Assembly: GCF_902729425.1 (NCBI RefSeq) | Contig: NZ_LR746531.1 | Coordinates: 1 to 64,000, forward strand | Origin: Magnetospirillum sp. SS-4 | GTDB taxonomy: Bacteria; Pseudomonadota; Alphaproteobacteria; Rhodospirillales; Magnetospirillaceae | DNA length: 64,000 nt | Direction: 5' to 3' | In this document: positions 34,336-51,428 of the stretch, piece after piece | Numbering within the stretch: the stretch's first letter is position 1 | Layout: each line of letters begins with the position of its first letter | Notes under the pieces: model-generated | The model's database searches: none | What the model was told of the DNA's origin: nothing | What the model saw: the letters and a program-made list of their open reading frames with translations, nothing else | Position numbers and translations under genes: made by a program

Positions 34336-35337
34336 ATGACCATCACCAGACGCAACTTCCTGCGCCAGGCGGCGGGTGGAACGGCGGCGGCAGCCGCCTG
34401 CGCCACCCTGGCCCCCAGCCCCGCCGAAGCGCGCGACAACCTGAAGGTGCCCGAGAAAGCCATCGGGCTCTTGTACGACTCGACGCTGTGCATCGGCTGC
34501 AAGGCCTGCATGTCCGGCTGCAAGGACGCCAACAACCTGCCTCTGGAGGACACCATCGGCGAAAAGCTGTGGGACACGCCGCTGGAGCTGTCGGGCAAGA
34601 CCTACACCGTCATCAAGATTTACCAGCACGGCACCATGGCCAACAAGGACAAGGCCGAGAACGGCTTCGCCCACATCAAGCGCCAGTGCCTGCATTGCGT
34701 CGATCCCTCCTGCGTTTCCGCCTGCCCGGTCTCGGCCATGCAGAAGCGTCCCGAGGACGGTGTCGTCACCTACAACAAGGACGCCTGCATCGGCTGCCGC
34801 TATTGCGTCGCCGCCTGCCCGTTCGGTGTCCCCCAGTTCCAGTACGACACCCCCAAGCCGGAAATCGCCAAGTGCCAGCTGTGCAAGCACCGGCTGGCCG
34901 AGGGCAAGATCCCGGCCTGCGCCGAGCAATGCCCGACCGGAGCCACCCTGTTCGGCACCCATCAGGCGCTGTCGGCGGAAATCGCCCGGCGCAAGGCCAT
35001 GAAGCCGGGCGAGCCCAACCTGTTCCCTCGGCGCACCATCGATTCGGGCGACAATCACGAGAAGGCGGCGGCGGAATACGTCGATCACGTCTACGGCGAG
35101 AAGGACGCCGGCGGCACCCAGGTCCGCTACCTGTCCGGCGTGCCGTTCGACAAGCTGGCCCTGCCGGTCGGCCTGCCGGAACGGTCCTACGCCGCCGATT
35201 CCGAGACGCTCCAGACCACCTTGTACGGCGGCCTGATCCTGCCGGGAATCGCCCTGGCCGGACTGGTGGCGGCGGCATGGCGCGGATCGAAGACCCATCA
35301 CGACGATGACGACCAAGGGGGGCAGAATCATGGTTAA
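34336..35337 (+). CDS. hybA: Hydrogenase 4Fe-4S electron-transfer protein HybA
   Basis: The 333-residue protein has a Tat signal (TRRNFLRQAAGG) and four cysteine groups: CIGCKACMSGC, CLHCVDPSCVSACP, CIGCRYCVAACP and CQLCKHRLAEGKIPACAEQCP. These should bind four 4Fe-4S clusters. A C-terminal hydrophobic helix (about 298-315) anchors it. It links the hydrogenase to the membrane quinone reductase HybB. The gene is 6 bases after hybO. Confidence 0.95.
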   Translation: MTITRRNFLRQAAGGTAAAAACATLAPSPAEARDNLKVPEKAIGLLYDSTLCIGCKACMSGCKDANNLPLEDTIGEKLWDTPLELSGKTYTVIKIYQHGTMANKDKAENGFAHIKRQCLHCVDPSCVSACPVSAMQKRPEDGVVTYNKDACIGCRYCVAACPFGVPQFQYDTPKPEIAKCQLCKHRLAEGKIPACAEQCPTGATLFGTHQALSAEIARRKAMKPGEPNLFPRRTIDSGDNHEKAAAEYVDHVYGEKDAGGTQVRYLSGVPFDKLALPVGLPERSYAADSETLQTTLYGGLILPGIALAGLVAAAWRGSKTHHDDDDQGGQNHG

Positions 35338-49895: not shown

Positions 49896-51026
49896 TCAGA
49901 CGAAATAGGTCTTCAGCGGGGCGAAGCCGTTGAAATTGACCGCCGAATAGCTGCTGGTATAGGCGCCGGTGGACAGGATGCGCACCTTGTCGCCGACCTT
50001 CAGGGACAACGGCATGCGATAGCCCGACTTCTCGTAGAGGATGTCGGCGGAATCGCAGGTGGGACCGGCCAGGGCCACCGGACCGGTCTCGTCGTCACCA
50101 TGGGGGGTCTCGATGCGGTACTTGATGGCCTCGTCCATCGTCTCGGCCAGGCCGCCGAACTTGCCCACGTCCAGATAGACCCAGCGCACGTCGTCGTCGT
50201 AGCCCTTGCGGCTGATCAGCACCACCTCGGATTCCAGCACGCCGGAATTGCCCACCATGCCGCGGCCCGGCTCGATGATCATGGTCGGGATGTTGTTGCC
50301 GAAATGATCGGTCATGGCGGTCATGATGGCGTCGGCGTAGCGGTCCATGGCGGGAATGTCGGTGCGGTACTTGGTGGGCAGACCACCGCCCAGGTTGACC
50401 ATGCGCAGATCGATGCCGGCCTCGGCCAGAGCGGTGAACAGCATGGCGGTCTTGCCCACCGCGATGTCCCACTGCCCCAGGTCGGTCTGCTGGCTGCCCA
50501 CGTGGAACGACACGCCATAGGGATCAAGGCCCAGGTCGCGGGCGCGGACCAGCAGGTCGCGGGCCATGTCGACCTCGCAGCCGAACTTGCGCGACAGCGG
50601 CCACTCGGCCCCCTCGCAGGTCATCAGGATGCGGCAGAACACCCGCGAGCCGGGGGCGGATTCGGCCAGCTTCTCCAACTCGGCCTCGGAATCGAAGGCG
50701 TACAGGGTCACGCCCTTGGAATAGGCGTAGGCGATGTCGCGCTGCTTCTTGATGGTGTTGCCGAACGAGATGCGGTCGGCCGAGGCGCCGGCTTCCAGGC
50801 ACAGGTCGATCTCGCCGGGGCTGGCGACGTCGAAGTTCGATCCCAGGCCGGTCAGCAGCGAGACGATCTCGGGGGCCGGATTGGCCTTCACCGCGTAGAA
50901 CACCTCGGCCACCGGCAGCCAACGTCGGATGTCGAGATAGTTCTGGCGAACCACGTCGAGGTCGACCACCAGGCAGGGGGTGGGGGGCTGAACTTCTTCC
51001 AGGAAACGGGCGATCTTGGCGGTCAT
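49896..51026 (-). CDS. Ornithine/lysine-type PLP decarboxylase (fold III)
   Basis: The 376-residue enzyme has the PLP lysine K47 in FYAVKANP, the phosphate-binding EPGRGMVG (252-259) and the interface cysteine C324 in GPTCDSADIL. This is the eukaryote-like alanine-racemase-fold ornithine decarboxylase, which starts polyamine synthesis by making putrescine; some members also use lysine or diaminopimelate. Alphaproteobacterial copies are often called speF or speC. A long structured leader with a uORF precedes it. Confidence 0.93.
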   Translation of the reverse strand: MTAKIARFLEEVQPPTPCLVVDLDVVRQNYLDIRRWLPVAEVFYAVKANPAPEIVSLLTGLGSNFDVASPGEIDLCLEAGASADRISFGNTIKKQRDIAYAYSKGVTLYAFDSEAELEKLAESAPGSRVFCRILMTCEGAEWPLSRKFGCEVDMARDLLVRARDLGLDPYGVSFHVGSQQTDLGQWDIAVGKTAMLFTALAEAGIDLRMVNLGGGLPTKYRTDIPAMDRYADAIMTAMTDHFGNNIPTMIIEPGRGMVGNSGVLESEVVLISRKGYDDDVRWVYLDVGKFGGLAETMDEAIKYRIETPHGDDETGPVALAGPTCDSADILYEKSGYRMPLSLKVGDKVRILSTGAYTSSYSAVNFNGFAPLKTYFV

Positions 51027-51394
51027 GGCAAATGCTCCAAACGGACCGGATGGTCTACGGCTTGCGGCCGAAAAGGCAGAGTCGAAGCCCCTAGGTCAGC
51101 CGGGTGGCGACCTGAGGGAACCCGACGGTGACGGCAATGGAAGGGATGCCGTCAGGCCCGTTTGGACGTACTTCGGACATCCGACCACAGCAGGGCCCAG
51201 CCCTGCCGCGTTACGGGCGTCTTGTACGCGGAGAAAAGAAGAGCGGACGACGCCGAAGCGTGCCGAGCAATCGAGTTCATAAGAGTTCCTCCAAGCACCG
51301 GGGGCTTTCACCCCGCTTGCACCCAGAAGACGCCTTTGACGTCGTTGCCTGACCACCCGTGGTCAGAGGCACGTGCGCTGTACGTCTGTCCTAA
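51027..51394 (-). promoter_or_regulatory. Structured 5' leader of ornithine decarboxylase (speF-leader-like)
   Basis: The ~370-base leader contains a uORF (51152-51280) and a series of stems: CTGACCAC/GTGGTCAG (51349-51366), GGGG/CCCC (51301-51314), GCAGGGC/GCCCTGC (51190-51206), TGACGGCA/TGCCGTCA (51129-51154, covering the uORF stop), and CCCTAGGTC/GACCTGAGGG (about 51088-51118). A conserved speF leader RNA is known before ornithine decarboxylase in Alphaproteobacteria. Position and gene fit, but I could not run a covariance search. Confidence 0.65.
51152..51280 (-). CDS. uORF leader peptide before ornithine decarboxylase
   Basis: A 42-codon frame starts ATG at 51280 behind a perfect GGAGGA site and reads MNSIARHASASSALLFSAYK, ending ...RQGWALLWSDVRSTSKRA with TGA at 51152. 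Ribosome-binding site, length and position argue for translation. In enterobacteria a peptide called SpeFL stalls on ornithine before speF; this one is not similar in sequence but may work in a comparable way. Confidence 0.65.
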   Translation of the reverse strand: MNSIARHASASSALLFSAYKTPVTRQGWALLWSDVRSTSKRA

Positions 51395-51400
51395 GGCCGC

Positions 51401-51428
51401 TATATACGCCGTTTTCGGACGATGAAAA
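51401..51428 (-). promoter_or_regulatory. Probable promoter of the ornithine decarboxylase leader
   Basis: On the minus strand TTTTCA (51423-51428) is followed after 16 bases by TATATA (51401-51406) in the context GCGTATATAG. The same extended -10 context GCGTATATAG recurs at about 56590-56599 in front of the CBS gene. Upstream to 51663 the sequence is AT-rich and holds no gene. Confidence 0.5.

Follow-up and report, generated by a model that had tools for sequence, protein, structure and literature searches.

A rare in-frame AGT codon and a stop-codon hairpin in the upstream reading frame of a Magnetospirillum ornithine decarboxylase-type leader: a candidate polyamine-gene attenuator

The window, that is, the whole 64,000-nucleotide stretch of Magnetospirillum sp. 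SS-4 DNA that was analyzed, carries on its minus strand a gene for an ornithine decarboxylase (ODC)-type PLP decarboxylase of 376 aa (49896-51026; Orn_Arg_deC_N, PF02784, 184 bits). Its closest solved relatives are lysine/ornithine decarboxylases (E 2e-62), followed by ornithine decarboxylases, and no NCBIfam model scored above its cut-off, so the exact substrate is not fixed by these matches. A homologue is present in 120 of 149 related genomes (E 1e-80 or better), and in four genomes (L282, L283, L284, L286) a close homologue lies directly 3' of homospermidine synthase. The sample surveyed for an upstream open reading frame (uORF) comprised 91 loci, drawing on 60 fetched upstream stretches and 30 loci given; a class-wide search, in which 134 of 385 genomes had the decarboxylase (E 1e-70), led to 60 further upstream stretches, used alongside 29 new loci. 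Just 5' of the decarboxylase start in L038 and L047, folding predicts a hairpin, CGCGTAC-AGGA-GTATGCG, whose loop holds the Shine-Dalgarno sequence of the gene. An ORF end, MNSAIAEAKDPVKMA...PLAGLI, recurs upstream of the decarboxylase in L060, L062, L070, L074 and L091, where the RNA core described below is absent by pattern; it is apparently the end of an upstream gene, which we take to be thiazole synthase.

The leader of this gene contains a uORF of 42 codons plus TGA on the minus strand (51152-51280; peptide MNSIARHASASSALLFSAYKTPVTRQGWALLWSDVRSTSKRA), with a Shine-Dalgarno sequence GGAGGA (51287-51292) six bases 5' of its ATG and with CGA AGT (Arg-Ser) at codons 36-37 (51170-51175), identical in 35 of 35 aligned leaders. 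The earlier note had described such a 42-codon uORF with a GGAGGA site and a stop codon within an 8-bp perfect hairpin, which holds in window coordinates, and had named conservation of the peptide in relatives as a check; the uORF is indeed conserved and coding in 35 decarboxylase leaders, window included. BLAST recognizes a homologue in 34 of the 91 loci (33 sites, window included) and a motif search adds L008 and L019, L016 and L008 having been placed in the 35-leader alignment by hand. The 35 aligned peptides, 37-49 aa long, follow the pattern MN-x-x-AR...variable...RQAWALLWSDVRSTSRRI. Carriers include Magnetospirillum fulvum, M. molischianum, M. aberrantis, M. sulfuroxidans, Paramagnetospirillum caucaseum and Terasakiella sp. 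PR1, several of which are labelled with the same genus as the window's genome.

Amino-acid identity in the block before CGA-AGT, calculated for 13 non-redundant sequences with L005, L008 and L009 left out, is 0.540 against a mean of 0.394 for shuffled columns, of which 1 in 2000 was as high. Over an equal number of codons, identity of the block is 0.564 in frame, 0.454 in frame +1 and 0.436 in frame +2. Across the 35 leaders, pN/pS for the whole uORF is 0.82, with values of 1.03 for the first 12 codons and 0.69 for the last 18, and differences at the third codon position (0.34) exceed those at the others (0.23, 0.29) only slightly. The first 12 codons thus show no protein-level constraint, and their value together with the overall one speaks against strong coding constraint over the whole uORF.

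The stop codon lies at the foot of a hairpin of 8 bp with a 10-nt loop (51129-51154), in which TGACGGCA (51154-51147), whose first three bases are the TGA, forms eight perfect pairs with TGCCGTCA (51136-51129). At least seven of the eight pairs can form at the stop in 29 of 33 leaders (window included), versus 310 of 3108 positions within the same uORFs. In alignment A1 (32 distinct rows), five of the eight pairs have changed on both sides and the covariation score was reached by none of 500 shuffles, with 18 cells of double-sided change against 8.1 in shuffles; the count of double-changed pairs was reached by 34 of 500 shuffles and that of further pair types by 412 of 500. The hairpin is thus more than chance, and it covaries. 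Mean folding z-scores against single-nucleotide shuffles over the 42 nt from the stop are -1.39 in 34 leaders of the window's group, -1.97 in 16 others of its family and -1.19 in 36 from other families; the corresponding means for the uORF bodies are 0.01, -1.18 and -0.08.

A second hairpin, CAAGCGGGG-UGAAAG-CCCCG-GUGCUUG (51292-51319), lies just 5' of the uORF Shine-Dalgarno sequence, and this hairpin, the 5' core and the stop hairpin all recur in relatives. Further upstream, TATATA (51401-51406) is a possible -10 element, and GTATATA recurs at the same distance from the core in nearly all leaders of the window's group; a consensus scan of the window's leader found neither a sigma-70 promoter nor an intrinsic terminator. 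A long-range pairing of a 5' GACGUAC with GUACGUC in the uORF was dropped, as it breaks in relatives. In some folds, inspection by eye showed the 3' arm of the stop hairpin, once freed, masking the decarboxylase ribosome-binding site, but there was no average effect: with the 5' arm covered, the site was predicted to be unpaired at 0.38 versus 0.38 in 45 leaders, so simple masking is not supported.

The 5' core, AGACG...CGCACGUGCC..hairpin..GCAACGACG...CGUCU (51321-51392), is ar45-like by its motifs and by the covariance model R1. Its motifs CGCACGTGCC...GCAACGACG, with flanks AGACG and CGTC(T), occur in the window and in many relatives; after the closing stem, many relatives have CUUUUUGG and the window's group has CUUCUGGG or CUUCCGGG. 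Model R1, built with the short-insert alignment A2 from 33 leaders that all lie outside the window's family, recovers the window's core (51.1 bits, E 3.2e-13); a further match elsewhere in the window (34772-34815, E 0.066) was taken as chance. For 53 cores with long inserts, aligned by MAFFT, RNAalifold was uninformative, and A2 was used instead. In A2, the outer stem alone changes on both sides (3 of 15 pairs, as many in 14 of 500 shuffles) and the covariation score of the whole structure did not beat the shuffles, 392 of 500 being as high, so the fold of the core rests mainly on conservation.

This core bears on the class assignment proposed in the earlier note, namely that the leader fits the alphaproteobacterial speF leader (RF00518), which the covariance-model search did not bear out. 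Scans for RF00518 found nothing across 13 kb of the window (E up to 1) or across 531 bases of the leader (E up to 10), nor, under stricter filters, in the window's own genome; ar45 (RF02347) gave no match at E up to 10 over the same 531 bases, and nothing in the leader reached the cut-offs of 37 bits (RF00518) or 40 bits (RF02347). In the class as a whole, RF00518 matches were found in 11 of 289 genomes at E 0.001, nine of them over the cut-off. RF02347 lies directly 5' of RF00518 in all three of these 11 loci that were scanned with the whole of Rfam; in 8 of the 11, R1 matches the stretch that immediately precedes RF00518 (E up to 1.1e-4), the remaining loci giving E 0.32 only (L102) or no match (L098, L100), and both core motifs stand by pattern directly before RF00518 in 10 of the 11. 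By sequence and predicted fold, as detected through R1, the window's leader shares the core of ar45, and its link to the alphaproteobacterial speF leader appears to run through this 5' core. No uORF was found by eye within the RF00518 part of the sequences of these loci.

The same core precedes other genes of polyamine metabolism. At E 0.01, 48 of 289 genomes of the class have an R1 match; at 1e-4, 70 of 119 relatives do, and 40 of 55 genomes of the window's family have two or more. The better copy in the window's own genome (77.7 bits, C78:233562-233629, L272) lies 5' of homospermidine synthase, so named in 14 of 14 solved matches (best E 7e-178); its leader, in which, as in the decarboxylase leader of the window, an Rfam scan gave no relevant match, has a 17-codon uORF, MLVTHKMGRASEIPSSM, that ends TCG AGT ATG TGA, with a possible hairpin CGGCGG...CCGCCG from the stop. 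A weak third match in this genome (C49:34747-34812, E 0.0035) belongs to a 3.5-kb locus, L273, that lacks the two core motifs. Across 31 core loci, the first hit gene is homospermidine synthase in 13, a second decarboxylase (also closest to lysine/ornithine decarboxylases) in nine, ODC in seven and none in two (L292, L300). Homospermidine synthase and/or the second decarboxylase lies downstream at 15 of 17 second sites, L278 and L287 lacking both and L273, L285 and L291 having been left out. In L288 and L290, the core is followed by a PLP decarboxylase, a 1,9-bis(guanidino)-5-aza-nonane-synthase-type gene and an agmatinase-type gene, identified by HMM in L288 and by similar protein starts and layout only in L290.

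Many of these uORFs carry a rare serine codon near their end. The ODC set of 176 upstream regions was obtained from 180 loci by removing repeats of the same sites (L001, L104, L109, L126); L031 and L048, which are cut by contig ends, were admitted on the 3' core motif alone. The core was found by pattern in 119 of the 176, and 98 of these 119 have a closed uORF, a call that required a Shine-Dalgarno-like stretch after the core; of the remaining regions, 57 lack the core by pattern, 12 have a core and no uORF, and nine have a frame that runs into ODC. An in-frame AGT lies within the last eight codons of 69 of the 98 closed uORFs, compared with 7 and 2 in the shifted frames, and AGT makes up 70 of 784 uORF tail codons versus 16 of 3147 body codons. 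At L016 and L083 the uORF rule took the wrong ORF and both were left counted as misses, the true uORF of L016 carrying AGT. The family count matters here because 51 of the 98 uORFs come from one family: AGT is present in at least half of the members in 14 of 26 families (4 and 1 in the other frames), and it is absent from most members in 12 of 26 families and from 29 of the 98 uORFs. In 72 ODC genes AGT accounts for 28 of 27072 codons (0.1%) and 1.9% of serine codons, of which it is the rarest.

A later set of 34 non-identical loci had the core in 34 of 34 and a closed uORF in 17, 16 of which carry AGT, with 12 frames running into the decarboxylase and five loci without uORF; this set is not fully independent, because several loci share genera with earlier ones and the L219 peptide equals that of L050. 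In seven loci (L229, L235, L237, L244, L258, L260, L303), a uORF-like frame directly after the core runs into the decarboxylase; these fused-frame leaders are of Ferrovibrio, Parvibaculum and Magnetovibrio type, as if the uORF had become an N-terminal extension. Beyond ODC, 34 of 40 second-site loci tried gave a uORF (five without uORF, one without core), after exclusion of L273 and L291 (core absent by pattern) and of L299 (one site with L272). AGT is in frame in 19 of these 34 loci, or 17 of 31 distinct uORFs, compared with 1 and 0 in the other frames; outside the window's family only 2 of 14 such uORFs carry it (L306, L307), so that in non-ODC leaders it is mainly a trait of that family.

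In the window's uORF, which the core precedes, AGT is codon 37 of 42. Between AGT and the stop lie 15 nt in this leader, 3 nt in homospermidine-synthase leaders and 0 nt in L319 and L320, so one fixed stall position cannot explain all cases. No fixed RNA pairing partner for AGT was found by eye, and the peptide bodies differ by group, with ends such as ...VRSTSRRI, ...CRDSM, ...GRKNPHSSL, ...PSSMTASRL and ...HISSI. AGT is nevertheless locked to the reading frame across genes and families, which indicates that the ribosome reads it as a codon. In the mRNA, AGU is read by wobble of tRNA-Ser(GCU).

These observations establish the anatomy of the leader, its conservation, the in-frame AGU and the repeated ties to ODC, homospermidine synthase and the second decarboxylase. 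They may best be explained, with a probability that we put at about one half, by attenuation of polyamine genes through a ribosome pause on a rare AGU close to the uORF end; that the leader belongs to a family of alphaproteobacterial polyamine-biosynthesis leaders is part of the same explanation and shares its estimate. The layout of this family consists of the 5' core, a short hairpin, a strong ribosome-binding site, the uORF, often a stop hairpin, and then the enzyme gene, and most members seen carry the rare AGU serine codon within the last eight uORF codons. A ribosome on the uORF would slow at AGU (CGA-AGU in the window's group), its position would decide whether the stop hairpin forms, and this position would in turn be coupled to transcription or translation of the enzyme gene. 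Judging from gene context, the pause may depend on polyamine supply and so exert feedback on polyamine synthesis. In relatives where the core is followed by a U-run (GCGUCCUUUUUGG), the core may itself terminate transcription; the U-run is absent from the window's leader, so control there is more likely translational or Rho-dependent, and Rho, RNA decay or translation are candidate readouts of the pause.

Polyamine-dependent control of the leader is a candidate reading, supported by gene association only. What holds of the earlier interpretation is that this is the leader of a decarboxylase gene, with a uORF conserved as coding and a genuine stop hairpin, and Rfam speF membership falls; its proposal of translation-based polyamine control is strengthened by the gene associations, with the sensor more likely to be the codon than the peptide. 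A more far-reaching version can be formulated, in which polyamines would set how fast the ribosome passes a rare G-U-wobble AGU near the ends of short uORFs; the stop hairpin and the 5' core would read out this speed, which would control ODC, homospermidine synthase and related genes as one Alphaproteobacteria regulon; the codon would then be the receptor and the peptide would hardly matter. We regard this version as doubtful.

Across families it is the rare in-frame AGT that stays rather than the peptide, which favors a codon-based pause over the nascent-chain sensor considered possible in the earlier note. Such a sensor would be a uORF peptide that arrests the ribosome on binding a polyamine or ornithine, with AGT as only one part of it. 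The conserved C-terminus RQAWALLWSDVRSTSRRI, maintained with synonymous changes in the window's group (Asp GAC/GAT 18/17, Trp 34/35), is what such a sensor would lead one to expect, as are the motifs GR[KRE]NP[HL]SS or GQGTVPSPV..CRDSM shared within other groups. However, the peptides differ between groups, the homospermidine-synthase uORFs of 14-17 codons keep AGT without these motifs, and a peptide effect would not require that one of six serine codons be used. We therefore consider a nascent-chain sensor rather unlikely, if still a serious contender.

Control by RNA alone, which we judge unlikely, would make the 5' core a protein- or ligand-binding terminator and would leave the uORF merely to keep ribosomes on the leader, through Rho protection or coupling, with AGT acting as a slow codon without a sensing role or belonging to an RNA motif. 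No part of the leader is better conserved than the core, and many relatives have the U-run; in Bartonella, the counterpart of the core, ar45, is expressed separately from the speF leader according to the accessible part of PMC7717549, and the Ferrovibrio, Parvibaculum and Magnetovibrio leaders manage without a separate uORF, the frame after the core entering the decarboxylase. Against this, an RNA motif need not be locked to a frame across genes and families as AGT is, and the A. tumefaciens speF RNA bound none of six metabolites by in-line probing (ornithine, lysine, diaminopimelate, putrescine, cadaverine, spermidine; available text of PMC1273637).

A small protein acting in trans, for which the place before ODC would be incidental, would account for the conserved coding C-terminus of one group. 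It is very improbable, since the body is unconserved, length varies from 37 to 49 aa even within that group, the uORF sits between core and gene in these leaders, and unrelated peptides precede other polyamine genes. Another minus-strand frame of the leader is open for 86 codons and plus-strand frames for 74-88, but the frame-locked AGT, hairpin covariation, stop-hairpin enrichment, conservation of the uORF frame and later loci leave practically no room for a chance ORF and hairpin.

If the preferred reading, a ribosome pause at AGU, is correct, it would bear on a long-standing question. How the alphaproteobacterial speF leader senses its signal has been open ever since metabolites did not bind the naked RNA in 2005 (PMC1273637, available part), and its function was still called unclear in 2020 (PMC7717549, accessible part). 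The lack of response of naked RNA would be explained if a uORF with a conserved rare codon has to be translated, and recurrence of the layout ahead of homospermidine synthase suggests a single polyamine regulon. The AGT and the arms of the stop hairpin are direct targets of point mutations for this model.

Among known systems, the window's leader resembles the RF00518 or extended speF element in lying upstream of a COG0019-type ornithine decarboxylase (COG0019/PF02784 in the window) in alphaproteobacteria (Corbino 2005, PMC1273637). In the available part of that paper, the conserved part begins close to the transcription start, in a stem with an insertion at its top, as here, and no uORF is mentioned; the window's leader, by contrast, gives no RF00518 match, and its uORF occupies the place of the RF00518 part. 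The S. meliloti speF locus is also listed as a candidate independent RNA (PMC2573895, accessible part). With alpha-r45 RNA (RF02347), the leader shares the CGCACGUGCC...GCAACGACG core at the same place, but it lacks a model match and the GGGC-UUUUUU end. The open PMC literature, where subscription papers are mostly absent, yielded no description of the uORF family or of its AGT. The closest described uORF before an alphaproteobacterial ODC found there is odc1 (uORF-25-1), which likewise combines a uORF with structured RNA and, in the available text of PMC8632094, has a uORF of constant length, 11 codons, whose UUG start lies two nucleotides before a UUG main start. The uORFs described here, unlike odc1, start with AUG, are mostly of 14-60 codons and end before the gene; TTG-NN-TTG occurs near the start in 3 of 176 loci, none of which opens such an 11-codon frame.

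In gammaproteobacteria, SpeFL (orf34), encoded before speF, arrests the ribosome with ornithine, stalling at the end of its uORF being ornithine-dependent; its decarboxylase presumably belongs to another family than that of the window. Both leaders have a uORF before an ornithine decarboxylase with ribosome-pausing codons, established or proposed, and a hairpin at or downstream of the stop; in Salmonella orf34, the ribosome pauses on arginine codons, and the hairpin beyond the stop cannot form while a ribosome occupies the stop codon (PMC6386406, accessible part). The consecutive arginines at orf34 codons 12-13 given in that part, the sole feature by which dissimilarity to SpeFL was judged, are absent from the window's uORF, which has Ser-Ala there. 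AGU would thus stand in the place of the arginine codons. Attenuators of the trpL type, too, have a regulatory codon within a short uORF that lies ahead of an RNA structure. The same arrangement is described for uORFC-8-2/cysS in the available part of PMC8632094. Unlike in either of these, the candidate regulatory element here would be a single rare codon, for an amino acid without obvious link to the product of the pathway.
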